A DNA stretch of 64,000 bases from Cohaesibacter celericrescens (GTDB taxonomy: Bacteria > Pseudomonadota > Alphaproteobacteria > Rhizobiales > Cohaesibacteraceae), in the NCBI RefSeq assembly GCF_002866925.1, contig NZ_PKUQ01000022.1, forward strand, positions 352,402 through 416,401. The letters run 5' to 3'. A program made the position numbers and the translations under genes. Under the pieces are notes generated by a model. It saw only the letters and a program-made list of their open reading frames with translations. It had not been told where the DNA came from and did no database searches. Below are positions 7,944 to 40,205 of the stretch, in pieces. Within the stretch, counting starts at the first letter, position 1. Every line of letters begins with the position of its first letter.

Positions 7944-9353
7944 TTAAACATCCAATGCTGGCAATATTAGAGTTGCGCAAATGCCGCCCAAGTCCGAGCG
8001 TTCCAAGGTGAATTGGCCTTGATAGAGCACGGCCATTTCCTCAACAATAGAAAGCCCTAGTCCAGTCCCAGGTTTGCTTTCGTCAAGGCGTTGTCCCCGT
8101 TGCATTGCAACATCCATATGCACATCACTCATACCTGCACCATCATCTTCCACCAAAATTGTAAACCAACCATTTTTGTCTGAAGCTGTTGTATGGTGTG
8201 ATTTGGATAATGTCTTTGGTCTGCCACGCAACAGTGTCACCTTGACTGCGGTGTCAGCCCATTTGCATCCATTGTCGATAAGGTTGCCAACCAGTTCCTC
8301 TAAATCCTGTTTTTCCCCGCGAAAACTGATATCCTCGGTATCTTCACAAAGAAGTTCAATTTTCTGAGACCCATGAATTTTGCGCATCACTTCCACCAGC
8401 TTATCCAAGACAGGATAGGCAGGAGTAACGCTCCCGATAACATTTCGGCGCGCAGCCATTCTTGCTCTCTCGAGATACATTTGAATTTGATCTCGCATAA
8501 CATCGGCCTGCTCGCTGAGCATTTTGCCTTTTGGTCCGTCTAAATGACGAACCTCATTGGTGATTACGGAGAGAGGAGTCTTCAGAGCGTGCGCTAGATT
8601 GCCAACTTGTGTCCGCGCCCGTTCCAATGTGTCCTTGTTTGACGCAATCAAAATATTGGCTTCATTGACCAATCCGGAAACTTCATCCGGATAGCTCCCT
8701 TCTATCGATGAAGCTTGACCTTCGGCTACATATCGGACCTGTTGCCTTAATATATTCAACGGGCGTAATGCAGTGCGTACCAGAAAAAAGGTAACAGCAA
8801 GGAGCGTGGCCCCGAAAGCCACCATAATCAACCAGGCTTTTTTCTGAAAATCGGCAACCTGATCATTCAAGTCTTCAGCGTTACCTGTTACCCGCATTAT
8901 ATAGTTTTCGGTTTGAGAAAATGATATCCTTCGCTCCAGAATACGAAGTCTTTTATCACCCGGGCCATAACCGTAAACACGCAAACCAGAACCGATGTCG
9001 CCTGCTTTTGACTTTTCGGCATCTAGTTTTAAGCCCCCACCGACCAATGATGCAGAGGCCAGCAGAATTTCACCAGAAGAGGCATTGCTCAGAGTCCAAT
9101 ACCACCCGGATAGTGGCAACTCATACCGCGGTTCCCCCAGATTTTTGGGGGCGACAAGAGGGTCGGAAGATAAAAGTTGACCCGCCAGCTCGCCAACGAG
9201 GATCTTTAGCACTATATCCAACTGTTCATCAAAACCCTGCTCAGCAGATGTGCGAAAAAAGGATGTCAAAACGAGGCCTGACGCAAAAGCGACTGCAATT
9301 GCCCAGATAGACGCGTTGAGTAGCAGATATCGAGTGATAGACTTCATTTTCAC
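7944..9353 (-). CDS. Membrane sensor histidine kinase, FeuQ/PhoQ-like
   Basis: The 469-residue kinase has helices at about 10-30 and 172-192 around a periplasmic sensor, a HAMP-like segment, the phospho-acceptor motif NLAHALKTPLSV with His255, an N-box (LIDNGCKWA), and G-boxes DDGAGM and GTGLGL. This is the PhoQ/FeuQ layout. Its start overlaps the stop of the response regulator by 4 bp, showing co-translation. In rhizobia FeuQ controls FeuP in the envelope/osmotic response and is itself inhibited by a small periplasmic protein; that role here is inferred. Confidence 0.88.
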   Translation of the reverse strand: MKMKSITRYLLLNASIWAIAVAFASGLVLTSFFRTSAEQGFDEQLDIVLKILVGELAGQLLSSDPLVAPKNLGEPRYELPLSGWYWTLSNASSGEILLASASLVGGGLKLDAEKSKAGDIGSGLRVYGYGPGDKRLRILERRISFSQTENYIMRVTGNAEDLNDQVADFQKKAWLIMVAFGATLLAVTFFLVRTALRPLNILRQQVRYVAEGQASSIEGSYPDEVSGLVNEANILIASNKDTLERARTQVGNLAHALKTPLSVITNEVRHLDGPKGKMLSEQADVMRDQIQMYLERARMAARRNVIGSVTPAYPVLDKLVEVMRKIHGSQKIELLCEDTEDISFRGEKQDLEELVGNLIDNGCKWADTAVKVTLLRGRPKTLSKSHHTTASDKNGWFTILVEDDGAGMSDVHMDVAMQRGQRLDESKPGTGLGLSIVEEMAVLYQGQFTLERSDLGGICATLILPALDV

Positions 9354-10018
9354 GACTTGCTCGGAGCAACCATATTGTAACCCAAGCCTCGCACAGTCTG
9401 AATGACATCAACACCCAGTTTTTTACGTAGCCGACCGATGAAAACTTCAATCGTGTTTGAATCACGATCAAAATCTTGATCATAAAGGTGCTCAACCAAT
9501 TCTGTACGAGAGATTATCTTACCCTGATGATGCATTAAGTAGGAAAGCAGTCGGTATTCATGAGAAGTAAGCTTCATCGTCTGCCCATCAACGGTCACCC
9601 GTCCGGAACGCGCATCAAGGCGCACAGGGCCGCACGTAATTTCGTTTGAAGCCAAACCGACAGATCGTCTGACAAGAGCCCTCAATCGGGCAACCACTTC
9701 TTCAATATGAAAGGGCTTGGCAACATAGTCATCGGCACCAGCGTCAATTCCCTGAACCTTATCGCTCCAACGATCTCTTGCTGTCAAAATGAGCACCGGC
9801 ATAGTGCGCCCGTTGCGTCGCCATGCCTCAAGAACGCTTATGCCATCCATGTTTGGGAGGCCGATGTCCAGTACGACAGCGTCATAAGGCTCTGTATCAC
9901 CCAAAAAGTGGCCTTCTTCACCATCGAAAGCACAATCAACAACATAGCCGTTGTCTTCCAATTCTTCTTTGAGCTGGCGATTCAGCTCTGTATCATCTTC
10001 TACAACCAGTATCCGCAT
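9350..10018 (-). CDS. OmpR/PhoB-family response regulator, FeuP-like
   Basis: The 222-residue protein has an N-terminal receiver (acidic pair EDD at 7-9, phospho-acceptor Asp51 in VVLDIGLPNMDG, K at about 101 in the VAKPFH segment) and a C-terminal winged-helix DNA-binding domain (LTSHEYRLLSYLM ... EVFIGRLRKKLG). It is the partner of the overlapping kinase gene. FeuP is the closest named rhizobial protein by gene order and type, but sequence alone does not settle orthology. Confidence 0.9.
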   Translation of the reverse strand: MRILVVEDDTELNRQLKEELEDNGYVVDCAFDGEEGHFLGDTEPYDAVVLDIGLPNMDGISVLEAWRRNGRTMPVLILTARDRWSDKVQGIDAGADDYVAKPFHIEEVVARLRALVRRSVGLASNEITCGPVRLDARSGRVTVDGQTMKLTSHEYRLLSYLMHHQGKIISRTELVEHLYDQDFDRDSNTIEVFIGRLRKKLGVDVIQTVRGLGYNMVAPSKS

Positions 10019-10076: not shown

Positions 10077-10403
10077 TCAGCGCCCTCCTTTACTTAGGAG
10101 TTTTCCGGACCGCGCATCGAGTGAAAGACGAGAAACAGCCCCCTGCCGAGACAGGGTTACCAGTTGATAGACCAGTCCAGCTTCACCTTGACACAATTTA
10201 ACATTGATTACATCTCCACGCACAACCTTGCCTGCCGCTGCCTTTATAGCAGAGAGGTGTTTGGCTTTACCGGCTTCTATCGCCTGTCTGGTTTCTTGCG
10301 ATGATAAACAATCCGCAGCCAGAGCCGAGTTTGTCTGATAGGCAAAGAAATCCATCAGGAAGACCAAAGCGCACAAAGCATAGATGTTGGTCCGGAGTTT
10401 CAT
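10077..10403 (-). CDS. Small secreted PepSY-like protein
   Basis: The 108-residue protein has a signal peptide (about 1-29), then a small periplasmic domain that resembles PepSY: helix (TRQAIEAGKAKHLSAIK) followed by strands ending in LSLDARSGKLLSKG. Two Cys remain after processing and may pair. It is 58 bp upstream of the response regulator on the same strand. A small exported protein beside a FeuPQ-type system recalls FeuN, the periplasmic inhibitor of FeuQ, but it is longer, and a PepSY signature is what I see. A modulator of the kinase is a reasonable inference. Confidence 0.75.
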   Translation of the reverse strand: MKLRTNIYALCALVFLMDFFAYQTNSALAADCLSSQETRQAIEAGKAKHLSAIKAAAGKVVRGDVINVKLCQGEAGLVYQLVTLSRQGAVSRLSLDARSGKLLSKGGR

Positions 10404-10495: not shown

Positions 10496-10765
10496 TCACA
10501 AGCCCTTACAATAACTCAGTAATTTTTGATTGTGGCGTTTTATTTCAAAGATAGTTTGTTTACTATCCTGACGAGACCACCGAATTGGATCAAAAAGAAG
10601 GCAGGAAAGCGCTTGGGATGATTTTAATGTGTCGTGCAAATTGCACTTGGAGCTATTTGGTATCATGTTTTTAGTCTCGGCGAAAACCGTCGGACTCGCG
10701 CAAGCTGTCAACAACATTGGTACTAAAAAGATCATCACTCCTGCTCTTCTGAGTTTCCGGTTCAT
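10496..10765 (-). CDS. Small lipoprotein, o-spanin (Rz1-like) candidate of the GTA lysis cassette
   Basis: The ATG at 10765 gives 89 residues with a short basic N-terminus, a hydrophobic core and a lipobox LLTAC, so it should be lipidated. The C-terminal part (FDPIRWSRQDSKQTIFEI followed by a K-R-H-N stretch and a late Cys) has the pattern of phage lysis lipoproteins, with P-I-x-W-S, an Asp, T-I and H-N. The first 95 bp lie out of frame inside the preceding membrane-protein gene, the classic Rz/Rz1 arrangement. It would be the outer-membrane half of a spanin that fuses the two membranes at lysis. An upstream ATG (10804) gives a worse signal. No biochemical motif proves the role. Confidence 0.62.
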   Translation of the reverse strand: MNRKLRRAGVMIFLVPMLLTACASPTVFAETKNMIPNSSKCNLHDTLKSSQALSCLLFDPIRWSRQDSKQTIFEIKRHNQKLLSYCKGL

Positions 10766-10970
10766 TTTGTTTTTCTTTCGTCGCCCATTTAGCCTTTGTT
10801 GCAAGAGTGATCGAGTTTTCTTGTTCGGTCATTTGGTCGCTTCGGCCATCCCTATGATTGTTGAGCGATGCATCCCGGTCTTGATTGGATCGCGCTAAAA
10901 CACCAGATAAGGAAGCCAGCAATGGAGCCAGCTTCACAACAAGTTTCAGTATTTGGAGAAGAATAGTCAT
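10671..10970 (-). CDS. Small membrane-anchored protein, i-spanin (Rz-like) candidate
   Basis: The 99-residue protein has one N-terminal membrane segment (about 3-25, MTILLQILKLVVKLAPLLAS) and a long, charged, hydrophilic tail ending in DSLRESDGFRRD, as expected for an inner-membrane spanin projecting into the periplasm. The ATG follows GAGGG at a good distance. It starts 24 bp after the holin-like gene, and the lipoprotein gene begins inside its 3' end in another frame. Similarity to known Rz proteins is by layout only; coiled-coil content is modest. Confidence 0.6.
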   Translation of the reverse strand: MTILLQILKLVVKLAPLLASLSGVLARSNQDRDASLNNHRDGRSDQMTEQENSITLATKAKWATKEKQNEPETQKSRSDDLFSTNVVDSLRESDGFRRD

Positions 10971-10994
10971 ATTTCCCTCGGCTTAATGCAGGCA

Positions 10995-11192
10995 CTAATT
11001 TGTAAACCAGGTCCGCCAAACAATCGTGACTGCGGCAGCCAAACTGGAAATCGACACGGCAAGTCGCTCTTGAAGGTCTGGATCAAGATCAAAGCCAAAC
11101 ATCGTCAGTCCCATGGCAAATACGGAAATGAGCTGGGTCCAGTTGATCTTGGATTCCCATGATGGCTTCGAAGATGGGTTGGAAATTGACAT
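10995..11192 (-). CDS. Holin-like small membrane protein
   Basis: The 65-residue protein has two membrane segments (about 18-34 and 44-60) joined by an acidic turn (GFDLDPDLQERL), and a short N-terminus with the W-x-S-K-x-x-W pattern common in small phage holins. AAGGGTG stands about 9 bp before its ATG. It lies 75 bp downstream of the GTA host-specificity gene on the same strand, and is followed at once by the two spanin-like genes. A holin would permeabilise the inner membrane to release particles. Function is inferred from size, topology and context. Confidence 0.65.
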   Translation of the reverse strand: MSISNPSSKPSWESKINWTQLISVFAMGLTMFGFDLDPDLQERLAVSISSLAAAVTIVWRTWFTN

Positions 11193-11267: not shown

Positions 11268-14200
11268 TTAGGAAGGGTCCCAAACCCGCAAACTTAACAA
11301 ATCAATCCGGCGGGTAAGGAGGTCACCAGCGCCAATTTTGTTGCTTAGTTGCGCAATCTCGACGGTTAGTTCGTTAAGTGCAGAAACCCCATCAACAATT
11401 TGCTCACTGGCCGGGTAAACCAAAATTGCAGCATCTGTCTCGATCTGCTTGATGATCAGGCCGGAAGATGGATGCCTAAGGGTAGTCTGATAGATTAGTT
11501 TTTCTTCGTCCAATGGAATGGACGCGCCAACCCAGCTGTCGGCATCAAGACGACCTCTACGAAGCCAAGTCAGATGCAAATCGTTGCTGCCAGTAAGCCT
11601 TTGGGCGCGCAAATGAACGGGTGACAATGGCTTCAAAGCGCGTCCTGGCACATCGATCACTGTATCGGCATTATCTGGACCTGACAGATTGCCACCTATC
11701 GGGACCAAACGATGAGGCAACTGTTTTTGCAACTGACTGATATCGATTTCTAATGCGTCAACCGCCTCATCCAAGAGGACAAATTGCGCCCCTTGATGTG
11801 CACCAGCCAAGGCAGCATTTTCAGTGCCTAATTGCCCGCGCAAAAATCCCTTCAACCGCCAAAGGTGGGACCCGATCAATTCGGCCGAGGAAAATTGTAG
11901 AACTTCCCATTCGTTGTTGGAGGCTTTGATCGCCGCGGCGTTGCTTCCTGATAACAAAACACCCTCGTCAACCGATGCAAGGTCGCCGTGATAGAGGGTC
12001 ACGTCCACGAAACTTGTTCTATCAAAAATGAAATTCTGTCTTGCAGAAAGATCACTGGCAAGTTCACCAACAATGGCCGCAACATCCAAAGACTGCTGCA
12101 GGCGGAATCCACTTTGGGTGGTTCCAGCATATAGAGCCACCCCACCAGCCCAAGGTTGTCCAAAGGCTGCCAAATAGGGCGCGTGTGGCCGTTCGGTTTT
12201 TCCCGGTAACAATGGTAAGTCGAGGCTCAACAATTGGGGCAGGATTTTTGTCGGGTTTTGTGTGGATCCATTTCTAAGGCTCAACGACAAAGGTGCTGTG
12301 TTTCTCGGAGCAGACAAACTGGCGGTCACCGTGCGCAATACGCCGTCTTCAATCTCGTCAATACGATAGAATGTTCCTGTTTCATCTTCATCAAGGGATA
12401 GTTGATCGCCAGCTTCCAGCGCCAGCAGCGAAGGTGGCAGTGCAAAACGGATGGTATGCCGCGCATAATTTTTGCTTCGGAGCCAATTTTTTGCAGCCTC
12501 AACCATCACCGGTTGAGTGGATACTGCCGCTAGCGACACGGAGCTGTCTTGCCGCGTGCGGGCAGCCGGTTGATCATAGCGGGCCACCGACTGGCGATAA
12601 TCTTGGAACAGTTCCTTGAAACCGAATGTAACACTGGAGACTTCAGATTCCCATGGCTCCAGCTGCCTTGCAATCAAGGGCGTGTCTCGTTCTTCCGCCA
12701 AGGCGTTGCTATCGAGTGCAATGGCAGAGCGGCGCTTAGAGGACTGGATGGTGAGATGATTGCCGCTAGCGATAAATGAAAGTCCGAATGCGTCGCATAA
12801 TCCTTCCAATGCCGCACGAGCAGACATTCGCCGGTCAATAACAAAGCCGTCCAGAACAGGCGCGGGAGAGGGGAAATTCGGCTCAGGCAACCCGTAGTCG
12901 GCGAGTATCGTTCGTACAATACCCTCCAGAGGGGCGCTGCCCAAACGACCATTAAGCCAATGCCCCGTCTGCCAGTTCGAACCGTCGGACCAAATATCGA
13001 GACTTGAAGGAAACGCAGGAAAAGGCCTTGCATCCCAAGCCCAAAGAAAGATCTGATCGGGGTCAACCATTGGGCGGTTGTAAACACTCGACACTGGGTT
13101 CCCGACATTGATCTGTGTAGCCCAATAGTCAAGACTGGCAGTCAGCATCTGCCTCTGAGCCGCATCGTCTCGTGATCCGGTGGAATGATATGGCAATCCG
13201 CCTTCTGCCGATTTTGGATCTGGAAAGACATTGGGCTGATTGGGGCCCAAGTGCACGGCAGGACAGCCGATTTCGGTGAACCATATCGGTTTGGACTGTG
13301 GCTGCCAGTCTGTCGGTAAGCCCGCTTCCTGCCCATTATCGCGATCATAATGGGTGTTGGACCACCAATTGACCAAATCCTTGTAACGGTAAACCCAAGG
13401 CTTCTGTGCGCCTCCATCGGTAATCTCGGTACGAATTTGAGCATCGCGATCTGCAGGCGAGGCATAATACCAATCAAAGCCTTCGCCACCTGCGATGTTT
13501 GCTTGGAGATAATCTTTATCCAGCCCGTTGTCAGACAAAGATGCGTCAGTATGTTGATATCCGGACCGCCAGTCAGACAGGGGCATATAATTGTCGATGC
13601 CAACAGCATCAATGTTTGCATCTGCCCAGAGCGCATCGAGGTGATACCGAACAACGCCCGATTCACCGCTTGGATGGTGGCCAAAATACTCCGACCAATC
13701 TGCACCGTAGGTGAGCATACAGTCTTGGCCGACCAGAGTGCGCACGTCTGCGGCCATTGTTTTCAAATGCGATACAAAGGGATAGGCCCCTTCCCCGTCT
13801 CGCACAGTTGTTAAGCCGCGCAACTCAGACCCGAGCAAAAAGGCATCAACGCCGCCCGACTCAAGAGCCAATTGCGCATAATGCAGGATAAACCGCTGAT
13901 AGCTCCAGTCTTGGGTTTGGACAAACTGATCGATCTGTGCAGCAGCAAGGCTGGTTTTGTCGGCACTGATCGGCTGATCAGCTGCAGGGGAACAGGTTAT
14001 CCGACCACGCCAAGGATATGCGGTCTGGCTCGAGTGCCCATATGGGTCAGCCAAACTGTTATCAGGCGGAATATCCATCATCAAAAATGGATACAGAACA
14101 ACCTCAAGGCCCTTTGCCTTGATCGCAGTAATCGCATTTTTCACCGAAGCGTCAGACGGTGTGCCACCGTAAGCAGGACGTCCGTCCAATTGGCTGACCG

Positions 14201-15158
14201 CTTGTGCGGTAGACCGAGATACGCCCGCCACCGACCAGCTATCCCCCTGAGTTTCCTTTGAGGAGCCGTCCACGCACGGTCTGATTTGGCAATGTTCGGC
14301 CCGCAAATCAGAACCAAACCAGCTCACCACCAAGGCAATACGCTGTAAATTGGGACAGGTTGCAACCAGATGATCAAGAGAGACATCAAAATTGGTGCCT
14401 GGTTCGAAGGAATGTCGATTTTCACTTTCCCATTCCCCAACGGCCACTTTGCGTGTGATTTCTTGCGTATCGTAGCCGAATTCTGTTGCCCCGGGTATCA
14501 TGACGATGGAGCGCACTTGTTGTTCCAGCTCTCCCACGGGCCGGATCACCTCAAAGCTCAGTTGTGGAATGCGGTTACCAAAATCGGCCAAAGGCAAATC
14601 TTCAAAAACCACATACGCCAAACCACGGTAGGCCGGACATTTGTTAGTCCCTTGTTTGGCCTCAATCAAGCTATCGGGTTGCTGGTCATTGGTGCCGCGA
14701 TAGACACGATAGGTAATATCCTGCAAATCCAAAACGCTGCCATTAGCCCAGATCCGGCCCACATAACCGATCTCGCCTTCGCAAAGGCCAACAGCAAAGT
14801 TGGCAAAATAGCTGTAGGTTGTTTGCTCCACCGTAGAACCGCCGCCCCCGCCTTTCGAGGCTCCTGTTTTTTGCTCTCTACGTGTTACCTTCTCGGTATA
14901 GTGGGTGGCCCAGAAGATCTCGCCGTTCAAACGGGCCCGGCCATAAAGACGCGCAATTGGAGCACCTTCGGTTGAGGTTTGGACTTGAAGATCCGACAAT
15001 CGAGGACCTTCCGTTTTGCTTGTCGAACCGCCAAATAACGATTGGTCGATAGCATAGCCTGCGCTTGCACCCAAGGCACCGCCCAAAGCTGCACCAAATG
15101 GGCCCAACAAAGCACCGCCGATCATGCTGCCTGCTGTTTTAAGAACAAGAGTGGTCAT
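11268..15158 (-). CDS. GTA host-specificity/baseplate megatron protein (gp15-type)
   Basis: At 1296 residues this is the longest GTA gene and matches RcGTA gp15 in size and position. The N-terminus is glycine-rich and hydrophobic (LGPFGAALGGALGASAG). A GTA TIM-barrel-like region lies at about 400-760 (GVDAFLLGSELRGLTTVRDG, DAVGIDNYMPLSDW, PIWFTEIGCPAVHLGPNQPN), followed by a phage-tail domain that forms the central hub and fibre-bearing region. It would contact the recipient cell surface. The ATG at 15158 gives the expected family start. It ends the structural operon and directly precedes the holin-like gene. Confidence 0.95.
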   Translation of the reverse strand: MTTLVLKTAGSMIGGALLGPFGAALGGALGASAGYAIDQSLFGGSTSKTEGPRLSDLQVQTSTEGAPIARLYGRARLNGEIFWATHYTEKVTRREQKTGASKGGGGGSTVEQTTYSYFANFAVGLCEGEIGYVGRIWANGSVLDLQDITYRVYRGTNDQQPDSLIEAKQGTNKCPAYRGLAYVVFEDLPLADFGNRIPQLSFEVIRPVGELEQQVRSIVMIPGATEFGYDTQEITRKVAVGEWESENRHSFEPGTNFDVSLDHLVATCPNLQRIALVVSWFGSDLRAEHCQIRPCVDGSSKETQGDSWSVAGVSRSTAQAVSQLDGRPAYGGTPSDASVKNAITAIKAKGLEVVLYPFLMMDIPPDNSLADPYGHSSQTAYPWRGRITCSPAADQPISADKTSLAAAQIDQFVQTQDWSYQRFILHYAQLALESGGVDAFLLGSELRGLTTVRDGEGAYPFVSHLKTMAADVRTLVGQDCMLTYGADWSEYFGHHPSGESGVVRYHLDALWADANIDAVGIDNYMPLSDWRSGYQHTDASLSDNGLDKDYLQANIAGGEGFDWYYASPADRDAQIRTEITDGGAQKPWVYRYKDLVNWWSNTHYDRDNGQEAGLPTDWQPQSKPIWFTEIGCPAVHLGPNQPNVFPDPKSAEGGLPYHSTGSRDDAAQRQMLTASLDYWATQINVGNPVSSVYNRPMVDPDQIFLWAWDARPFPAFPSSLDIWSDGSNWQTGHWLNGRLGSAPLEGIVRTILADYGLPEPNFPSPAPVLDGFVIDRRMSARAALEGLCDAFGLSFIASGNHLTIQSSKRRSAIALDSNALAEERDTPLIARQLEPWESEVSSVTFGFKELFQDYRQSVARYDQPAARTRQDSSVSLAAVSTQPVMVEAAKNWLRSKNYARHTIRFALPPSLLALEAGDQLSLDEDETGTFYRIDEIEDGVLRTVTASLSAPRNTAPLSLSLRNGSTQNPTKILPQLLSLDLPLLPGKTERPHAPYLAAFGQPWAGGVALYAGTTQSGFRLQQSLDVAAIVGELASDLSARQNFIFDRTSFVDVTLYHGDLASVDEGVLLSGSNAAAIKASNNEWEVLQFSSAELIGSHLWRLKGFLRGQLGTENAALAGAHQGAQFVLLDEAVDALEIDISQLQKQLPHRLVPIGGNLSGPDNADTVIDVPGRALKPLSPVHLRAQRLTGSNDLHLTWLRRGRLDADSWVGASIPLDEEKLIYQTTLRHPSSGLIIKQIETDAAILVYPASEQIVDGVSALNELTVEIAQLSNKIGAGDLLTRRIDLLSLRVWDPS

Positions 15159-15185
15159 AATTTAAATTCCATTTGGTGGAGAGGA

Positions 15186-15638
15186 TCAGCGCAGCGATAG
15201 CGGGAACGAAAAGGCATAAGCGATGTGTCGCCGCCACCAGTCGTTCAGAGAAACGAGCACAACGCCGCTTCCGTGCTGGGCATGCAGAAACCGGTCAGCG
15301 TTGATAAGGATGCCCGCATGTTTGGCGGGGTGGTTTGCTCGATAGCGGAAAAGCATCACATTGCCGGCCTGCAAATGCTCAATTTCTATGGGCTGCAAAT
15401 AACGATTTGCGGCGTTGGCAAAAGTTTCCTCCCCCCCTGCATCGGCCCAATCGGGGCTATATGAGGGAGGCAATTCTGGTTCAGCCCAAAAACAACGATA
15501 GACGCCTCGGATCAAACCGAGGCAATCGCAACCGGCGCCCTTGCAACTGGCTTGATGCTTATAAGGAGTGCCTTGCCAACTCATCGCTTCTTCAATGATC
15601 TGAGGAACACCAATTTTTTCACTTTGATGGTGCGTCAT
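15186..15638 (-). CDS. GTA NlpC/P60-family cell-wall peptidase (gp14-type)
   Basis: About 150 residues with the NlpC/P60 fold: catalytic Cys in GCDCLGLIRG and His in the HPAKHAGIL segment. In RcGTA this enzyme sits in the baseplate and cuts recipient peptidoglycan for DNA entry. The frame is open much further upstream, but that part overlaps the DUF2163 gene. The ATG at 15638, just beyond the DUF2163 stop (15640), gives the family start. It lies between the hub gene and the megatron gene. Confidence 0.9.
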   Translation of the reverse strand: MTHHQSEKIGVPQIIEEAMSWQGTPYKHQASCKGAGCDCLGLIRGVYRCFWAEPELPPSYSPDWADAGGEETFANAANRYLQPIEIEHLQAGNVMLFRYRANHPAKHAGILINADRFLHAQHGSGVVLVSLNDWWRRHIAYAFSFPLSLR

Positions 15639-15639
15639 C

Positions 15640-16536
15640 TCATTGCTCCACCACGATGGCGGAGCCGTCGCGTGTGAGGCCTTGTTCGGGATAACTGAGA
15701 ATGAAGTCATTGCCAGGTATATGGGGAAATCCGCGAAAATTGAGCTGATTACCAAATTGATTGCGACATGTCGCAAAGGTCTTATCGCAACCAACCGTAA
15801 CGCACACAGCATCTCCAACCGCCACTCCAACATGAATAGGCAGCCATAATTCCAAGCGTTCTTGCGTACCATCAATGTGATGAGACAGGATATCAAAACG
15901 CATCGCATTGGCCTCGCCAGACAGCATTTCCAAACATCCCATCGTCAGCTGACCCGAGGCAGGCCGACTGCTAAGTACAACGGTGATTTCAGTCGGTGAT
16001 AAGCGGGAGGCGACAGTGCCTTCAAACCCTAGACCTGCGAGACTGAGATCAATCCCGCACCGTGCATCGCCTAACGACGCATCGCATCCATATTGATAAA
16101 TACGCCCACGCTCTTGCTCCAATTCGACGGATAGACTTCGAATTTCGGCCTGAAAGCTCTGGGAATCGCGCTTGATTTCGCCCAAATAGCCAGTGCGAAG
16201 CATTATCGCCTGTTCAGGCACTTGCCAATTGACCCGCCAAGTCTCAATCACCGCAGCATCATATCGGCCACTCATCAAATCGGCTTCAGAGATACGATCA
16301 GACGTCAGGATTCCGCTTATATCCTGATCGTCACTGGCGAAGCCGTCGCTTTGTCTAATTTCCGAACCCGTCAAACCAGAAGCAGGCTCACAAGATATGC
16401 CTTGCAGTTCGAGCGTTTTGTCGTGGTCCGTAAATCCGAGCGCACAACCGTCTGTTCGGCGCAAGATCCAGCAGGTTGCCAGCGTGGTTACACCAGACTT
16501 CAAATGGGCCTCAAAATCATCTGATAGGGTTTTCAT
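15640..16536 (-). CDS. GTA DUF2163/phage BR0599-family hub protein (gp13-type)
   Basis: The 298-residue protein has the DUF2163 start (LATCWILRRTDGCALGFTDHD) and the C-terminal BR0599-like domain with Cys residues (YGCDASLGDARCGIDL, CDKTFATCRNQFGN), which in RcGTA gp13 bind an iron-sulfur cluster in the tail hub. The ATG overlaps the stop of the DUF2460 gene by 4 bp, showing translational coupling. Confidence 0.93.
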   Translation of the reverse strand: MKTLSDDFEAHLKSGVTTLATCWILRRTDGCALGFTDHDKTLELQGISCEPASGLTGSEIRQSDGFASDDQDISGILTSDRISEADLMSGRYDAAVIETWRVNWQVPEQAIMLRTGYLGEIKRDSQSFQAEIRSLSVELEQERGRIYQYGCDASLGDARCGIDLSLAGLGFEGTVASRLSPTEITVVLSSRPASGQLTMGCLEMLSGEANAMRFDILSHHIDGTQERLELWLPIHVGVAVGDAVCVTVGCDKTFATCRNQFGNQLNFRGFPHIPGNDFILSYPEQGLTRDGSAIVVEQ

Positions 16537-17159
16537 ACTCGGATCTCCACCAAAGGGATCGAAGGGATGTCTCCCGCTTCGAACGCGCTTAAAGAAAACT
16601 CCAATTTATCGGTGTCGAAGCGGACAGGTACATCGAACAAGAACCCGGCACTGATGACCGCACCATCAGCAGGCGCTGTGTCAAACGTCACGGTCCCCGT
16701 CACCTCATTGACGGAATATGCTGTTACGTCTGCTCCGTTGAGCGCGATAGCGACCGAGCCGGCAACAGGTTTTGAAATGGTGCGGTAATAGGGCGCATGC
16801 AGCCCGCCGTAGGTTTTGATCAGCACAAATGAACACGAAGTTCCATCTCCAATAGCGATGGTTTGATCGTTAGCTGACGGAGATTTACCAAAACCGCAAG
16901 ACGCATGATCTAGCGGGTCTCGAAAACGGAACCCGTAAAGCTTGCCGCGCCGTTCTTCAAAAAAGGACAAAACGGCTTGCAGGTCAGCAAAAGACCGCAC
17001 CCCAAGGCCTGCATCAAATGTCCGGCGTGACGACGCCCAGCGGGCATTGCGTTCTTCGAACCCGGAAGCAAGCGTTGCGACGTCAGTCCGGCGCTCCGGC
17101 CCTCCGGAGGCGCCAAATCCGACATCCAGCGGGAATAGAATTTCATGAAAACCGTTCAT
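16533..17159 (-). CDS. GTA DUF2460 distal tail protein (gp12-type)
   Basis: About 208 residues of the TIGR02217/DUF2460 family: FHEILFPLDVGFGASGGPER near the start and FFEERRGKLYGFRFRDPLDH in the first third are characteristic. It forms the distal tail ring joining tail tube and hub. GAGG stands just before the ATG at 17159; an ATG 9 bp upstream (17168) is also possible. It overlaps the DUF2163 gene by 4 bp. Upstream lies the only sizeable gap of the structural operon. Confidence 0.92.
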   Translation of the reverse strand: MNGFHEILFPLDVGFGASGGPERRTDVATLASGFEERNARWASSRRTFDAGLGVRSFADLQAVLSFFEERRGKLYGFRFRDPLDHASCGFGKSPSANDQTIAIGDGTSCSFVLIKTYGGLHAPYYRTISKPVAGSVAIALNGADVTAYSVNEVTGTVTFDTAPADGAVISAGFLFDVPVRFDTDKLEFSLSAFEAGDIPSIPLVEIRV

Positions 17160-17200
17160 ATGCCTCATCCGGCTAAGTGTTTATAACAGAAGGGATATCT

Positions 17201-17214
17201 TTGACTTCGATCAA
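17201..17214. promoter_or_regulatory. FNR/FixK-like palindrome inside the GTA operon
   Basis: TTGAC-TTCG-ATCAA matches the FNR/FixK consensus TTGAT-N4-ATCAA at 9 of 10 positions. It lies in the 194-bp gap (17169-17362) between the tape-measure and DUF2460 genes, about 40-55 bp before the latter's start. A TTATAA follows downstream at 17186-17181. A match of this quality can arise by chance, so the site is a weak candidate. Confidence 0.25.
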
Positions 17215-17362
17215 GGAGCGCCCATAGGCCCCATGTCATGGTAATTTTGCGATGCAGAGGGTTATTTGCGTGAAGCTCCGGGGGCTGATCACTTATGACC
17301 AGAAGGCGTTCCTTCCTGCTAGCCCGTTGGTGGTCGAGCCCCTCCTCGTCGTACGCCAGCAA

Positions 17363-17965
17363 TTATAGCCCGCGTCGTCCCCGTCCGACGGCGCGGGTTA
17401 ATTTTGTCGCAATCTGATTTTCCGATTTAGTGAAAGAGTTCGCATCTGTTGTGGTGACATTCATCACGATGGATACCGGCTGCCCTGACGCATTGGGCGC
17501 CGCAACGCCAAGGCTACCGTCTGCGCCTCGCCTTAGAGGAAGGATCGCTTCGGCACCGGCTTCCCCCATCAACCCTGTTCCCGATTGCAAGGGAAACAGC
17601 GATGGCGAAGAAACAACGCCTCCCTTGGCAAAAGGCATCAAGGATCCAAACAATGAGGTCCCCCCGGAAGACGCAGACGACCCCAGCGCTGAAAACAAGC
17701 CCGATGCCATATTCGACACCGTGCCCGAAACCATTTGCTTGAGGGGCGCCATGCCAGCGGCTAGAAAACTCTTACTCATATCAAGCGCAAGATTTTTGAA
17801 AATTTGTTCGAGGCTTTTGCCACTCACCAGCGCCTGCTCCATAGCGCCGGCCACTTTGTTCCCCAGCATATCAGCCTGCTTTTGTGCAGAACTCATTTCC
17901 TTGGAAAAGGATCTGATGTCCGCCTCCACTTGAATCACGGCGGTCTCAACTACTTCTGCGGCCAT
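17363..17965 (-). CDS. GTA short tail tape-measure protein (gp11-type)
   Basis: At 200 residues it is very short for a tape measure, as in RcGTA, and fits a short tail. It contains a helical N-terminus (ADIRSFSKEMSSAQKQADML), a middle hydrophobic Gly/Ser/Ala region, and the family signature FAKGGVVSSPSLFPL followed by GLMGEAGAEAILPLRRG. The C-terminus is basic (TRAVGRGRRGL). It follows the tail assembly chaperone genes. Confidence 0.93.
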   Translation of the reverse strand: MAAEVVETAVIQVEADIRSFSKEMSSAQKQADMLGNKVAGAMEQALVSGKSLEQIFKNLALDMSKSFLAAGMAPLKQMVSGTVSNMASGLFSALGSSASSGGTSLFGSLMPFAKGGVVSSPSLFPLQSGTGLMGEAGAEAILPLRRGADGSLGVAAPNASGQPVSIVMNVTTTDANSFTKSENQIATKLTRAVGRGRRGL

Positions 17966-17985
17966 GACACTGTCCTTTCATTATT

Positions 17986-18207
17986 TTAGAAACTGTTTGT
18001 GGTGGAAGCCCCTGTACTGTGGCTATCCGGGAAAGCCTCACACAGCTGTGCAAGCGCATTGCGGCTTGGTTGTGCGCTGGTTGCAGGACTTGCCCCGATC
18101 GCTGACAACAGCTCTTTGGGAGTTACACCCCAGACGGTCTGCGGTGCCCAGCCCAAAGACTGCATGCCCAAGCACAAAATGGTATCCCATGGAAACGCGT
18201 CGATCAC
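17986..18207 (-). CDS. GTA tail assembly chaperone, Rcc01693-type (gp10.1)
   Basis: A 73-residue ORF of the Rcc01693-like family: FPWDTILCLGMQSLGWAP and VWGVTPKELLSAIG match the compact family motif (a hydrophobic start, then F/VW-x-x-TP-x-E-L). The start is a GTG at 18207 with no strong ribosome site; a nearby alternative start is possible. It lies between the gp10-type gene and the tape measure, the position of the second chaperone in GTAs and siphophages. Confidence 0.8.
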   Translation of the reverse strand: MIDAFPWDTILCLGMQSLGWAPQTVWGVTPKELLSAIGASPATSAQPSRNALAQLCEAFPDSHSTGASTTNSF

Positions 18208-18236
18208 ATTGGCCGACCTGTCAGGGTCAGATCGGC

Positions 18237-18608
18237 CTAGATGGGGTTTGCAGTTGGAGCAGCCCCCTCTCCCTCAAAAGAGACACCCGCAGCATCGGCA
18301 TGAGGATCAAAGGTTAATCGCAAAACATCAACCAACGCTTTGGTGAGGGCAATTGCTCCGCCTTCGCATCGCATGGCGGCAGCTTCTTTATCACAAATGT
18401 CTGCACCACCGGCACGCAAAGCGGCCCCCAGTATTTTGACCAAATCCACGCTTCGGACTTTGCCTTGTGCAAACCGATCGGCCAGCTGGCCGATATTTTC
18501 AAGTCCCATACTGTCCTCCAGCTCGGCAAGCGCGCCAAGGGTTAGGCACAATCGATATGGTTTTTCATTGAGTTCGAGCGATATCTCGCCACGTCTTCGG
18601 TTTGCCAT
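18237..18608 (-). CDS. GTA family tail assembly chaperone (gp10-type, GTA_gp10)
   Basis: About 123 residues with the gp10 family core: LELNEKPYRLCLTLGALAELEDSMG, then a helical region and CDKEAAAMRCEGGAIALTKAL. It probably coats the tape measure during tail assembly. Two ATGs (18614 and 18608) are possible; the second gives the usual M-A-N-R start. It follows the major tail gene by a short gap. Confidence 0.88.
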   Translation of the reverse strand: MANRRRGEISLELNEKPYRLCLTLGALAELEDSMGLENIGQLADRFAQGKVRSVDLVKILGAALRAGGADICDKEAAAMRCEGGAIALTKALVDVLRLTFDPHADAAGVSFEGEGAAPTANPI

Positions 18609-18625
18609 GAGCATTTTGCTTTCGC

Positions 18626-19039
18626 TTACAGAGCAGTGAAGGTGAGCAGGCCGGCGGATTCCAGCGCCAATTCAAACGCCAGTTCATTGTCGTGATTGCC
18701 GGAATATTCCAACGCAGTGATTTGAAACGGGCCTTCAAGGATACCAAAGTCCGGTATAATGACCTGCCAATTGATGATTGCTCCATCAAAAAACAATGTG
18801 CGCAGGCGCTCATCACTGTCCCCGTCTTTGAAAAGCCCACTGCCAGACAGGCTGGCCCGACGCATTCCTGCGCCGGATAGTAACTCGCGCCATCGTCCGG
18901 CTGATTCAGAGTGGCTGATGTCAACACTCTCGGCGTTGAAGGACAGAGAACGTGCACGCAGGCCAGCGACGGTGACAAAGGCATCATCGGCAGCGTTGCG
19001 AACTTTCAAAAGCAGGTCTTTGCCTCGTTGTGCAGTCAT
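18626..19039 (-). CDS. GTA major tail tube protein (gp9-type)
   Basis: About 137 residues of the phage major tail protein TP901-1/GTA family: MTAQRGKDLLLKVRNAADD at the start, the tube-fold strand segment LSFNAESVDISHSES, and a C-terminal ELALESAGLLTFTAL. AAGGAG stands before the ATG at 19039; the frame is open upstream to 19156 but overlaps the DUF3168 gene. It polymerises into the tail tube. Confidence 0.9.
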   Translation of the reverse strand: MTAQRGKDLLLKVRNAADDAFVTVAGLRARSLSFNAESVDISHSESAGRWRELLSGAGMRRASLSGSGLFKDGDSDERLRTLFFDGAIINWQVIIPDFGILEGPFQITALEYSGNHDNELAFELALESAGLLTFTAL

Positions 19040-19071
19040 TGTTGGATCTCCTTGTAGAATTAAACTGTTGC

Positions 19072-19485
19072 CTATTGTGCGTATTCTTCCGTTACGGCAC
19101 GGATCTGCATCACGCCTTGAAGCAACCGGTTCTTGCGGTCTGGGCGGATTTCGCAACGCTCAATCTGAAGGTTGACAAGATGGTGATCTGTCAGGCTCAG
19201 GGCCGGATCTGTGAGAGACGCGCGCAAACAGGCCAAAATCTCCTGTTGCAGCATGCGATCATTAGACCCGGCCCAGACGGTAATCATCAGGCGGTGTTCG
19301 TCGCCTGCTTCGCTGCCTGTGCTCCAGTCACGCGTATAACTGGTCGTCACTGTAAGGTAGGGGAATACGCTGTCGCGTCTGGGTTCGTCATAGATACGAA
19401 CGCCACCCAAAAATTCGATCAGGGTATTATCGGCTTTAAGCGCGTTAAAAATCGCCTGTTCCAGGCTGCGAGATGCCAGCATCAT
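19072..19485 (-). CDS. GTA DUF3168 tail terminator (gp8-type)
   Basis: The 137-residue DUF3168 protein shows FNALKADNTLIEFLGG, RIYDEPRRDSVFPYLTV and the HRLMITVWAGSNDR segment. It forms the ring that ends tail growth and joins the head. The start overlaps the preceding small gene by 4 bp. Confidence 0.9.
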   Translation of the reverse strand: MMLASRSLEQAIFNALKADNTLIEFLGGVRIYDEPRRDSVFPYLTVTTSYTRDWSTGSEAGDEHRLMITVWAGSNDRMLQQEILACLRASLTDPALSLTDHHLVNLQIERCEIRPDRKNRLLQGVMQIRAVTEEYAQ

Positions 19486-19742
19486 GAAGACTGTCTCCCG
19501 ATCTGAGCCAAGGATTGCAATAGACGGCTGATCGAAGCTGAGGCTTGCGTTTCCCTATCCCCAAACTGCTGGCTCATGATGTTCGGGCCACTCATAGCCA
19601 GTTGAGCAGTCTCTCCTCCTATCTCAGGGGTAATGTCGATCTTTAGACTCTGCTGTTCGGCCAGTTCTTGCAATTGCGCGGCAATGCGGGGTAGACGGTC
19701 TGCGATGAGCTGATGCGCGAGAGTTTTGTTACGCATGACCAA
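19482..19742 (-). CDS. Small GTA-operon protein, possibly HK97 gp10-like
   Basis: An 86-residue protein coupled on both sides: it overlaps the stopper gene by 14 bp and the DUF3168 gene by 4 bp, so it is translated. The C-terminal part (MSGPNIMSQQFGDRET) resembles the G-P-x-x-x-x-x-E/Q-F-G element of HK97 gp10-type tail-completion proteins, but it is shorter than those. RcGTA has no gene in this slot as far as I recall. The family assignment is tentative. Confidence 0.6.
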   Translation of the reverse strand: MVMRNKTLAHQLIADRLPRIAAQLQELAEQQSLKIDITPEIGGETAQLAMSGPNIMSQQFGDRETQASASISRLLQSLAQIGRQSS

Positions 19743-20085
19743 GGGTGCTCCGCGCTTGAATGATGAGCCATCTTTTGCTGAAGTCAGGGTCGCTCATAGA
19801 CAGCAGGTCAAAAGATTGACCGTCGAAGGTGATCATGGTGACTGTCCCTAAATCAGTGCGATGACGCATTATCAGCTCAATCGAGCGGCTGTTGGCGGCT
19901 TGCTCAGCATCCAGTTTTTCTTGGGCAGATACGTTCAGAACCCCTGCCCAAACTTGTGCAACCAGCTGGGTCGATGTCGCCCCTTGCCAAGGCGAGATGG
20001 CGTCGAAGTCTGGCGCACGTAGCTCTATTTGATGCTTCAAACCGGCAGGATCGAAATTGAAGGCTTTCAAGGCTCTTTCAGGCAT
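19729..20085 (-). CDS. GTA head-tail adaptor/stopper (gp7-type, SPP1 gp16-like)
   Basis: The 118-residue protein has the head-closure beta-barrel pattern (VAQVWAGVLNVSAQEK, SIELIMRHRTDLGTVTMI, WLIIQARS). A perfect AGGAGG precedes the ATG. It closes the connector below the gp6-type protein. Confidence 0.88.
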   Translation of the reverse strand: MPERALKAFNFDPAGLKHQIELRAPDFDAISPWQGATSTQLVAQVWAGVLNVSAQEKLDAEQAANSRSIELIMRHRTDLGTVTMITFDGQSFDLLSMSDPDFSKRWLIIQARSTLGHA

Positions 20086-20094
20086 AGAGACCTC

Positions 20095-20655
20095 CTACAA
20101 TCGAATGGTTTTGTAGGGATTGACCAAAGGCTGCAATGCTTTTGCAAGCGTTGGCAATTGAGTGGGATCTGCGATCAGGCGCCGCTCATACCACTCTGCA
20201 ACAATCATTTTCAGAGCCTGCTTGAGCGGCATTGGCACATCTTCGTCTGACGGTCCGTATCCGGTTTCCAAGTCCAGTTGCAGACGCTGGCCAGCGGTTA
20301 GCAGCATGCCCCCCGAGTTAACAATCAGCGCCGGATTGTGGGATTGGTAGAGCGCAAAGCTCTCGGTCGCCAAAGACAACAAATCACCGTCTTCGGAGAG
20401 AATGGCCGCAGAAACGATATTCGAGACCGGCTGTAACGGTAACGAAATTCTCCGGCCCAAATCACCATCAAGCAGAACGCGCCATGTCTGTGTGATGAAC
20501 TGGCGGCCCGTCAAATGCTCAAGATGCACTCGAGCCGAACTGATGAAGGCCCGCAATAGATCGTCTTCCGCGTCGCTGTCCAGTTTCAAAAAGGCCTTGA
20601 TGTCGGCAAGGCTAACCGGTTCCACCATCGGCGGAGACAAAAGATTGGCTGTCAT
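20095..20655 (-). CDS. GTA head-tail connector (gp6-type)
   Basis: About 186 residues from the ATG at 20655; the frame is open upstream to 20781 but that part does not look family-like. The core VSLADIKAFLKLDSDAED, then LLRAFISSARVHLEHLTGRQF and a C-terminal PLKQALKMIVAEWYERR, is characteristic of the connector-adaptor family (YqbG/gp6, TIGR02215). It attaches beneath the portal. It follows the capsid gene. Confidence 0.9.
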   Translation of the reverse strand: MTANLLSPPMVEPVSLADIKAFLKLDSDAEDDLLRAFISSARVHLEHLTGRQFITQTWRVLLDGDLGRRISLPLQPVSNIVSAAILSEDGDLLSLATESFALYQSHNPALIVNSGGMLLTAGQRLQLDLETGYGPSDEDVPMPLKQALKMIVAEWYERRLIADPTQLPTLAKALQPLVNPYKTIRL

Positions 20656-20796
20656 ATTTGTACCATTGCAAATGAAATCATAAGCCGGAGGATTGGCCAT
20701 TGAGAAAGAAATGGATGCCTTTGCTAGCCGGGAGGAAAACCAGCAAAGGCACCCAATGAGGCGACGAAAATTTCGCCCCATTGGAGTTTGTTGGGG

Positions 20797-22068
20797 TCAG
20801 ACTGAGAACTGCATCAGTTTGATGGCGTCGAAGTCCTGCACACCGCCACCTACACGTTTGGTGGTGTAGAAGAGGACGTAGGGTTTGGCCGAGAATGGGT
20901 CACGCAAAATGCGCAGCCCCAAACGGTCAACCACCAGATACCCACGTTTGAAATCGCCAAAGGCAATGGCGTTGGCATCGGCTGCGATGTCAGGCATGTC
21001 TTCAGCTTCCGTGATGGCAAAGTTCAACAAAGACGCCTTGCCACCGACTGCTGTTGGTGGCTGCCAGAGATAACTGCCATCGGAGTCTTTGAGCTTGCGA
21101 ATGGCCGCTTGCGAGCGACGGTTCATGACAAACTGGGCGTTCTGGCGATAGCCGGCCTTGAGGCTGTAGACCAGATCAATCAGAGCGTCATCCGGGTCAG
21201 AGGATGCAAACGCTCCGGCAGCACCTGATTTGACGCGGCCGATGTTACCCCAGGTCCAACTGTCTTCATCAACCGCTGTTTCACTCATAAAGCCTTTAGG
21301 TTGGTTGACGCCATCTCCATTGACAAAGGCCGCCCCTTCTTGAGCGGCAAAGGCAGCCTCGACCTCGGAAGCGATCCATTCTTCAATGTTGACTGCAGCA
21401 TCATCGAGCAAGCTCGGCGTGGCTGCAGGCATGGCGTAGAGCTCCATCGTAGGGAAAGAAAGCTCCGCCAAGGTTGAGCCGTCTGTTTGTGGGCGGGAGG
21501 CAGTTTCGCCGACCCAGCCGACCTGCGGACCAGAAACAGCAAAAGGCTTCTTCAGGGTGGAGCCCGAGACCTCGCGTATATCGGCAATGGCGCGGATAGG
21601 CGAGATCGCGGCCAGTCGCTTGCCGACTTCGGCTTCGATTTGCTCGGGCACCAAATAGCCGCCATCTGGATCAGACCCGACCGACATGGCTTTTGCCTCC
21701 AGCTGGTGCAGATCTTGCTCGACACCGGCCCGAATGTAACGATCAAATGCGGTTTTGTGCTGCATGGCTCCCGCTGAAAGCAAGGCGCCATGGGCATGGC
21801 GGCCGTTATGCGTTTCACCAAGACCGGGGCGACGGGCTTTGAGGATCAGAGTATCCAATGCCGACTGTTGGTCGTCCAATGCTTTTGAGATGCGATCGAC
21901 CTTGTGGTCGGTCAACACATCGGCAGAGCGCTTTTCAATCTGGTCAAGGCGTTCGTCATTGGCTTGTTTGAAAGCCTCGAACGAGCCTAGAAAATCGTCA
22001 AACGCGCTGCCCAAGTCGGCATCGGTGAGAGATTTTATCTCGGGAGAAGAGTGAATCTGTTTGTTCAT
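20797..22068 (-). CDS. GTA HK97-type major capsid protein (gp5-type)
   Basis: About 423 residues with an N-terminal coiled delta domain (AFKQANDERLDQIEKRSADV) removed by the protease, then the HK97 fold with GGYLVPEQIEAEVGKRL, IRAIADIREVSGST, EGAAFVNGDGVNQPKGF and a C-terminal AIAFGDFKRGYLVVDRLG. ATG at 22068 follows AAGG; a further ATG at 22095 gives an atypical extension. It assembles the GTA head. Confidence 0.95.
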   Translation of the reverse strand: MNKQIHSSPEIKSLTDADLGSAFDDFLGSFEAFKQANDERLDQIEKRSADVLTDHKVDRISKALDDQQSALDTLILKARRPGLGETHNGRHAHGALLSAGAMQHKTAFDRYIRAGVEQDLHQLEAKAMSVGSDPDGGYLVPEQIEAEVGKRLAAISPIRAIADIREVSGSTLKKPFAVSGPQVGWVGETASRPQTDGSTLAELSFPTMELYAMPAATPSLLDDAAVNIEEWIASEVEAAFAAQEGAAFVNGDGVNQPKGFMSETAVDEDSWTWGNIGRVKSGAAGAFASSDPDDALIDLVYSLKAGYRQNAQFVMNRRSQAAIRKLKDSDGSYLWQPPTAVGGKASLLNFAITEAEDMPDIAADANAIAFGDFKRGYLVVDRLGLRILRDPFSAKPYVLFYTTKRVGGGVQDFDAIKLMQFSV

Positions 22069-22104
22069 CAGAATTGCCTTATGAGTGAGAAACATTGATT
22101 GGTT

Positions 22105-22833
22105 TTACGTCCCGGAACCCAAGGTGCGGGTCGCCTGATGCAGCGTGTTTGTCAGGCGATGCAAACTGGTTAGCGGGTGGATTGGCCGAGAGGAGGCAGC
22201 GTCCTGCATGCCGGTCAGACCAGAGAAGCCACGGGTCAAAAGACCGCGGGCTTGAGAACGCGTTAGCCCAGCGTCATGCATGAGCTTGCGTTCCAATTCA
22301 CGTTTACTGAAGGGAGGATTAAAGGCAGGAGTTACGGCTCTCCTCCCGCCCTCGGCTTTGATGGAAGAGATGCGCGCATCGGGCTGCATCGGGAATGTAA
22401 CGATCGAAATTTCCCAAAGATCAAGCTCGACGAGATATCGCACGCCTGCCTTTTTGTCGGAGTGCCCACGCACAGTGCGAAAGCCGATAGACAATCCATC
22501 CAGAATGCCAGCTTTCATCATAGAATGGATCTCGCGCGCTTTTTCGACATCGAGCGCCAATTGGCCACGCACAAAGAGGCCTTTTGCGTCTTCTCGAATG
22601 CTCAGCCACTGACCAATCGGCTGAGCGGGGTCATGCTGATACAGCAGTTTGATACCCTGTTGACCGCGTTGCTTGAGGCTTTTTGAAAAAGCACCGGGGC
22701 GAATAAGGTCATGGCCGAGATCTTCTTTGTCAAACAGACAAGCGTAGCCTTCAAACAAGCCGTCTTTGCCGACCGAACTCAGCGTCGCGGACATGGCTTT
22801 CATTTCCCGCCGCAAGGCGTGATCACGATCCAT
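22105..22833 (-). CDS. GTA HK97-family prohead protease (gp4-type)
   Basis: The 242-residue protein belongs to peptidase family U35 (HK97 prohead protease): FEGYACLFDKEDLGHDLIRP, GAFSKSLKQRG, IKLLYQHDPAQPIGQW with the catalytic His, and GILDGLSIGFR with the conserved Ser. It trims the capsid delta domain during maturation. The C-terminal third is basic and variable. It precedes the capsid gene. Confidence 0.92.
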   Translation of the reverse strand: MDRDHALRREMKAMSATLSSVGKDGLFEGYACLFDKEDLGHDLIRPGAFSKSLKQRGQQGIKLLYQHDPAQPIGQWLSIREDAKGLFVRGQLALDVEKAREIHSMMKAGILDGLSIGFRTVRGHSDKKAGVRYLVELDLWEISIVTFPMQPDARISSIKAEGGRRAVTPAFNPPFSKRELERKLMHDAGLTRSQARGLLTRGFSGLTGMQDAASSRPIHPLTSLHRLTNTLHQATRTLGSGT

Positions 22834-22881
22834 GGGTATTTTCCTTTTTGAAGAATTTCAGGGGGAGCAACAGTGGTCTGG

Positions 22882-23019
22882 TTACAGTGCCGAGACGAGG
22901 CGTATGCGTGCCTTGGGCTGGTCTTTGAGATGTGTCTCCAGACACAGGGCAAATCGGGAGAAAATCTCTTTATGAGCCGCTACAGATGATGCGACAGCAG
23001 GAGCCGTGTGGTCATCCAT
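22882..23019 (-). CDS. Very small GTA-operon ORF of unknown function (45 residues)
   Basis: The ORF starts with an ATG embedded in the DUF6127 gene's end as ATGGATGA, so that the two genes overlap by 8 bp, and it fills the space to the protease gene. The product (MDDHTAPAVASSVAAHKEIF and on) is amphipathic, without a recognised domain. The tight coupling supports translation, while its size and lack of known family leave it tentative. Confidence 0.4.
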   Translation of the reverse strand: MDDHTAPAVASSVAAHKEIFSRFALCLETHLKDQPKARIRLVSAL

Positions 23020-23212
23020 CCAAAAGACGGGTGATGCGGGCGATTTCTTCAACAAAATCCTGAAACCTTTGATTGGAGGCAGCTTGTTCACGCAAGCTCC
23101 AGACCAGCAACGCACTTGATGCACTGGCCCAAAGAAACAGCGCCACATGAGCGAGATCGCCTTTGGTTGAAAAGATTTGCAAAGCTTCCGACACATCAGC
23201 TCCCTCCCCCAT
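23012..23212 (-). CDS. GTA DUF6127 small membrane protein (gp3.5-type)
   Basis: About 66 residues with one membrane segment (AHVALFLWASASSALLVW) followed by a basic helical tail (REQAASNQRFQDFVEEIARI), a layout seen in the small gene between portal and protease in many GTAs. AGGGG precedes the ATG at 23212, and the gene overlaps the portal gene by 17 bp. Other in-frame ATGs (23254, 23278) are possible. Its role is not known to me. Confidence 0.75.
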   Translation of the reverse strand: MGEGADVSEALQIFSTKGDLAHVALFLWASASSALLVWSLREQAASNQRFQDFVEEIARITRLLDG

Positions 23213-24452: not shown

Positions 24453-24478
24453 GCGCTTCTTCCTTCCTTTGAGAATTG

Positions 24479-39782: not shown

Positions 39783-40205
39783 ATGTCTATATCCATTGAC
39801 GAAATCATCGACAATTTCTCATATATTGATGACTGGGAAGAACGCTATCGTTATGTGATTGAACTGGGGCGTGACCTAAAGGGATTGTCACCAGAGGCCA
39901 TGACAGAAGCCAACAAAGTGCAAGGCTGCGTCTCACAGGTTTGGCTAACGACCGAATTATCTGGGGATTCCGACAACCCGACGCTTATCTTCCAAGGCGA
40001 TAGCGATGCTCATATCGTCAAAGGACTTGTGGCGATTGCTCTCATCACATTTTCTGGCAAAAGCGCCAAGGAAATCCTTGCGACCGATGCTGATGCCATT
40101 TTTAACAAGATTGGCCTGCATGACCATTTAACGCCTCAAAGATCCAATGGTCTTCAGGCAATGATTGGCCGCATCAAAACTGATGCGCAAAATGCCTTGT
40201 CATAG
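39783..40205 (+). CDS. sufE: Cysteine desulfuration protein SufE
   Basis: The 140-residue SufE stimulates the cysteine desulfurase SufS and takes up sulfur for Fe-S cluster assembly. The catalytic Cys49 lies in KVQGCVSQVWL, and the C-terminal part contains SNGLQAMIGRIKTDA. Length and motifs are normal. It stands alone, away from a suf operon, and converges on the DUF6456 gene. Confidence 0.92.
   Translation: MSISIDEIIDNFSYIDDWEERYRYVIELGRDLKGLSPEAMTEANKVQGCVSQVWLTTELSGDSDNPTLIFQGDSDAHIVKGLVAIALITFSGKSAKEILATDADAIFNKIGLHDHLTPQRSNGLQAMIGRIKTDAQNALS

Follow-up and report, generated by a model that had tools for sequence, protein, structure and literature searches.

Gene organization at the distal end of the GTA cluster

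The window, i.e. the whole 64-kb stretch of DNA analyzed here, carries on its minus strand a cluster of gene transfer agent (GTA) genes which spans 11268-26273 and ends with gp15, the GTA baseplate megatron (11268-15158, minus strand; 1625 bits for NF048004 GTA_megatron, cut-off 800, and a match to GTA_TIM). It is preceded by gp14, encoding an NlpC/P60 tail peptidase (15186-15629, minus strand; TIGR02219), for which the start was our choice within an open reading frame (ORF) of 15186-15908, and by RcGTA-type genes for gp13, gp12, tape measure, tail protein, capsid, protease, portal and terminase (15640-26273, minus strand). Family matches identify the capsid, the portal and the large terminase, the protease and the small terminase are named by position only, and the RcGTA-like tape measure of 200 amino acids scores 163 bits with NF058675, below the cut-off of 220. 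By these structural genes, with a megatron gp15 among them, the cluster is assigned as a predicted RcGTA-type gene transfer agent.

Directly 3′ of gp15 and on the same strand lie three small ORFs at 10496-11192, as the first-pass annotation had described: hol (10995-11192, minus strand), encoding a holin-like protein of 65 amino acids with two predicted helices; iSp (10671-10970, minus strand), encoding an i-spanin-like protein of 99 amino acids with one N-terminal anchor; and oSp (10496-10765, minus strand), encoding a putative o-spanin lipoprotein of 89 amino acids. The genes are closely packed, with 75 bp between gp15 and hol and 24 bp between hol and iSp; oSp starts inside iSp in the +1 frame (overlap of 95 bp), and the purine-rich motifs AAGGGTG and GAGGGA are found upstream of the hol and iSp starts, respectively. 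No hydrolase gene is present within the cassette and no endolysin gene was found beside it. The 75-bp gap between gp15 and hol contains no terminator- or promoter-like sites, which is a weak test, and a terminator-like site is located inside hol on the coding strand (11041-11027), in a region with five such sites against 1.9 expected. The trio may be co-expressed with the GTA genes.

At a distance of 92 bp from oSp, on the same strand, begins a gene for a secreted protein of 108 amino acids (10077-10403, minus strand), PepSY-like by eye and with no Pfam or NCBIfam match, which is also located 3′ of the cassette in relatives. It is followed by the gene for an OmpR-type response regulator (9350-10018, minus strand). 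At 40221-41512 (minus strand), between sufE (39783-40205) and mucR/ros (42250-42663), the window encodes a DUF6456 protein and a DnaA-type helix-turn-helix protein; this corresponds to the split gafA (gafY/gafZ) arrangement known from Hyphomicrobiales, as described in the accessible text of PMC9638019, and therefore likely represents the GTA activator, which would lie some 14 kb away from the structural genes.

Predicted products of hol, iSp and oSp

The AlphaFold model of Hol contains helices at residues 18-31 and 38-63, only at moderate confidence (mean pLDDT 65, pTM 0.30). Hydropathy scanning (17 residues, threshold 1.5) detects two segments in 15 of 19 members of the family and a single one, at 43-59, in the protein from the window itself. 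Among 13 chosen rows per family searched at E ≤ 0.1, Hol proteins match the PHROG holin families phrog_34682 (9 of 13 rows, best E 3.9e-5) and phrog_263 (5 of 13 rows). The window's own Hol matches a holin PHROG weakly (E 0.096), has nothing above the cut-off in Pfam and gave no records in a protein search of the phage collection. Of seven named hol loci recovered from genome contigs, four belong to Cohaesibacter (68-77% identity); contigs of C. marisflavi and C. haloalkalitolerans are among those with such loci. Over a 54-codon core from 16 Cohaesibacter the median dN/dS for hol is 0.07 (from the 73 of 120 pairs in which dS is not saturated) and pN/pS over all pairs is 0.17. This low ratio, together with the gp15-hol adjacency kept in 14 species, indicates that the hol ORF is more than a chance reading frame. 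Hol is probably an inner-membrane pore former.

The 99-residue protein has a single hydrophobic segment at the N-terminus, like all 18 of its homologs, and a conserved C-terminus (DGF/Y-K/R-R in most rows of the alignment); no PHROG was matched by any of 13 rows, leaving it without a detectable family. We call it an i-spanin on account of the single N-terminal anchor, the +1 overlap by oSp and its position. The 89-residue lipoprotein matches phrog_1275 ("Rz-like spanin") with an E-value of 3.1e-6, the family being hit by 13 of 13 rows (best 8.8e-8), and a lipobox, scored in the sequence with a loose pattern, is present in 19 of 19 homologs (LTAC in the window). A protein search of the phage collection with OSp returned four records, the best with E 0.1. 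Both genes were found at 18 of 19 loci, and in all 18 the start of oSp falls within iSp in the +1 frame; the overlap lengths across loci are upper bounds, as the first in-frame start codon was used. Both spanin assignments proposed earlier, a single-anchor i-spanin-like protein and a phage-lysis-type lipoprotein, are supported, and the two proteins probably constitute a two-part outer-membrane breaker. Strong matches to unrelated membrane proteins, which had been named as evidence against the proposal, did not appear: each domain search returned either lysis families or no match, and no unrelated family exceeded a curated cut-off. Matches to solved structures stayed at chance level (best E 0.58 and 0.22).

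Spanin gene arrangements have been described for phages (PMC9636201, accessible text). The pair shares with the overlapping spanins (P2-like; Rz/Rz1) the +1 overlap and a lipoprotein OSp frame running past a single-anchor ISp, but differs from phage Rz/Rz1 in that the trio is attached to a GTA, has no endolysin in the cassette and includes an i-spanin without detectable family.

Distribution in Cohaesibacter and other Hyphomicrobiales

Homologs of hol and oSp were found in the same 17 of 61 relatives, namely 16 of 18 Cohaesibacter and one MAG of the same family (G019), where both sit in a prophage. The first-pass annotation had stated that an absence of homologs beside GTA clusters in relatives would count against it; gp15 lies directly upstream of hol in 14 of the 16 trio-bearing Cohaesibacter. 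As to the remaining two, the contig of G005 ends behind hol and the sole megatron match of this genome is a prophage-type copy, while in G017 two fibre-like ORFs (by eye), with no gp15, fill the 3 kb between hol and the edge of the contig, and a gp15 of the window type is found at the start of a different contig. Tail-fibre genes thus seemingly stand between gp15 and hol in G017. In another Cohaesibacter (G013, locus L043) gp15 is split into two frames and the cassette is intact.

Both Cohaesibacter without a megatron (G009 and G011) also lack the trio at the syntenic site (2/2). In these species a CxxCxxCC protein, like the one flanking the start of the GTA in the window, adjoins the gene that otherwise follows the trio, which indicates that the trio is missing together with the GTA as a single block; G011 retains a 19-residue tape-measure match between the two flank genes. 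The gene next to the trio and the response regulator gene are intact in both. In the sister genus (G018) gp15 is followed by a gene for a holin-like protein of 70 amino acids, 15-23% identical to Cohaesibacter Hol, and the oSp profile finds no match in this genome. The downstream genes are the same in Cohaesibacter and in G018, which points to a GTA kept by descent at one fixed site.

In a sample of 397 Hyphomicrobiales genomes the oSp profile matches 55, the 16 Cohaesibacter and 39 others. Among the latter, 32 have a megatron match and 25, representing 10 families, carry oSp on the same strand 0.4-5.8 kb behind gp15 (G062 and G021 with a C-terminal gp15 match only, G278 with gp15 cut by the contig end). 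A same-strand target of 7 kb makes up well below 1% of genomes of at least 2.5 Mb, so this linkage is not attributable to chance. The expectation that gp15-linked homologs would be found elsewhere in the order is thereby confirmed. Seven of the 39 have no megatron, among them the MAG G019 with its prophage copy. As gp15 is present in 274 of the 397 genomes and oSp in 55, this o-spanin was not detected in the majority of genomes with a GTA. Class-wide, the oSp profile finds 7 of 385 genomes, the window's own included; no gp15 was found in the stretches fetched for the six remaining genomes, although three of these stretches are complete contigs shorter than 8 kb.

We fetched 20 of the 25 linked regions (all except those of G219, G197, G202, G355 and G021) and 20 other gp15 regions. 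At E 0.01, the hol profile matches in 10 and the iSp profile in 16 of the linked regions. Among the 20 other regions, only two gave weak oSp matches. The order gp15-holin-o-spanin-regulator seen in the window recurs in G135, G101 and G062; G135 and G062 also match the iSp profile, and G101 has an ORF resembling iSp. In G062 (locus L142) the middle of the GTA is gone: the trio and the regulator are retained, along with terminase genes and some 100 C-terminal residues of gp15; it follows from this partial deletion that the trio can outlast the particle genes.

A putative release cassette and its origin

It is known from phages that lysis proceeds in the sequence holin, hydrolase and spanin. We propose that the trio is a GTA release (lysis) cassette, a reading to which we assign a probability of roughly 0.84 on the strength of gene content, homology, synteny, the joint absence of trio and GTA in two species and selection on hol. 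Transcription running out of the structural operon would yield Hol, whose timed opening of the inner membrane would give a murein hydrolase access to the wall; with the wall gone, ISp and OSp would join up through the periplasm and break the outer membrane, so that GTA particles are set free. Since no hydrolase gene lies in the cassette, this enzyme would have to be encoded elsewhere. The gp15-linked trio may in this way serve in outer-membrane disruption. Its parts are those of an ordinary lysis cassette; its place is unusual and widely shared.

Homologous trios are present, 3′ of a hydrolase-like gene, in prophages of two Cohaesibacter (G002 and G006), of the same-family MAG (G019) and of Pseudovibrio. 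These prophages appear Mu-like, both this label and that of the hydrolase-like genes being given by the look of the ORFs; the hydrolase-like gene of the G006 prophage also matches M15_4. The order holin, i-spanin, o-spanin is the same as in the window, but a hydrolase-like gene precedes the prophage holin where gp15 precedes hol. A hydrolase followed by holin and spanins is a usual order of a lysis module, and the lysis nature of the trio therefore does not depend on topology alone. Cohaesibacter GTA Hol shares 37-51% identity with two prophage holins taken as references, compared with 19-33% for GTA-linked holins of other families. In a holin tree (26 of 31 rows after removal of five near-identical ones, 73 columns, long branches flagged, non-Cohaesibacter GTA rows trimmed to the profile match) the Cohaesibacter GTA and prophage holins are split from 11 other GTA holins with support of 100/99. 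The closer relationship to prophage than to GTA-linked holins suggests a module swap, in which the trio, coming from the lysis module of a transposable prophage, would probably have taken the place of an earlier GTA holin in the ancestor of Cohaesibacter.

The same relationships would be expected if the trio were a transposable-prophage leftover inserted by chance behind gp15 and unrelated to GTA release. This is very unlikely, given that no further prophage gene was seen at the site (by eye), that the gp15-hol adjacency in 14 species and purifying selection on hol speak for retention, that trio and GTA are jointly missing from both GTA-less species, and that lysis genes occupy the same slot in other families.

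Alternatively, the trio could belong to the downstream operon of secreted protein, response regulator and kinase, with a role in envelope stress or signalling and not in the GTA; we give this very little credence. The common strand and the 92-bp spacing agree with it, as does the finding that in 36 of the 40 fetched Hyphomicrobiales regions a homologous regulator with the orientation of gp15 lies 3′ of it (none found in G294, G025, G044 and G041), flanking the GTA slot, and the joint survival of trio and regulator beside the mostly deleted GTA of G062. Against it, G009 and G011 keep the next gene and the regulator without GTA and trio, and the regulator follows gp15 by 165-454 bp in G060, G040 and G026, too near for a trio to fit, and by 702 bp in G038.

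The lack of a linked hydrolase is the main gap in the release mechanism. Two endolysin families, GH108 and M15_4, were searched genome-wide. Neither GH108 nor GTA_holin_3TM, which we take to be the R. capsulatus GTA holin family, was found in any of the 16 Cohaesibacter searched, and we accordingly rejected a lysis pair of the R. capsulatus type at another genomic site. M15_4 occurs in 7 of 13 Cohaesibacter, in one case as the G006 prophage gene; being patchy and absent from the window's genome, it was discarded as the missing endolysin. The gp14 peptidase was set aside as well, because a role in release has been excluded for its R. capsulatus homolog (PMC3423380, accessible text).

The window's genome contains a second gp15 (G000:C15:172759-176700), about 41% identical to that of the window, in an element that is probably a GTA-related prophage. 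Inspection by eye shows in this element an integrase gene, a hydrolase gene and separate small genes of Rz/Rz1-like type. The capsid of the element is 48% like that of the window, compared with 66% for the G018 capsid. It was rejected as the true GTA for the integrase, the lysis-type genes and this capsid comparison. The idea that the trio consists of lysis genes and that release does without a true endolysin, or borrows one from a co-resident prophage, fits the absence of a linked endolysin, of GH108 in 16 Cohaesibacter and the presence of this prophage with its hydrolase-like gene (by eye), but it has a very small chance of being correct, because the endolysin searches covered GH108 and M15_4 only and because a single megatron match in each of the trio-bearing G001, G002, G004, G006, G008 and G015 means that such a prophage is not general.

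Studies of GTA release cover two model systems, and their solutions differ. In R. capsulatus the lysis genes rcc00555/rcc00556 (endolysin, holin) are unlinked to the GTA cluster according to the accessible parts of PMC6854486 and PMC6209664, which agrees with the separate locus stated in the first-pass annotation. The window would share with that system the release of an RcGTA-type particle, but its lysis genes are linked, and the accessible text on R. capsulatus makes no mention of a spanin. In Caulobacter, release depends on the CARD-NLR-like LypABC, and the genome has no canonical holin-endolysin homologs (PMC13236601 and, for LypABC, PMC9632790; accessible text); LypABC and the trio are both tied to an RcGTA-type particle, the latter by contrast being of holin-spanin type. 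The terms lysis, holin and endolysin are absent from the text of a survey (PMC6821227). In a literature search that leaves out most subscription papers, no title or abstract opening described spanins, or lysis cassettes linked to the GTA, in Hyphomicrobiales. If the release reading of the trio is correct, a linked cassette with spanins would be a third arrangement, with a dedicated outer-membrane step for GTAs, and particle production and cell death could be coupled in one transcript. The arrangement also has a bearing on how a costly element under vertical inheritance can retain the capacity for host lysis.

At somewhat better than even odds, Hyphomicrobiales GTAs may possess an exchangeable release slot between gp15 and the regulator operon, in which lysis modules, some from co-resident prophages, are swapped while the particle genes are inherited vertically; Cohaesibacter release would then consist of an endolysin-less holin-spanin module and an unlinked hydrolase. 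The modules in the proposed slot would include GH108, CHAP, M15 and lysozyme-type hydrolases, various holins, i- and o-spanins and tail fibres. GH108 was found in 3 of 26 order genomes searched, in all three with a match just behind gp15 or its C-terminal piece. A Pfam scan of ORFs of at least 130 amino acids behind gp15 (77 of the 91 listed, 45 in linked and 32 in other regions, 14 being left out) gave GH108 in 4 linked versus 5 other ORFs, CHAP in 5 versus 4 and phage lysozyme in 0 versus 2, along with further families. DUF2793, carried by the unlinked tail fibre of R. capsulatus, was detected in 12 of 45 linked versus 7 of 32 other ORFs, i.e. in 19 of the 77 scanned, for example at 1006-2613 of locus L123.
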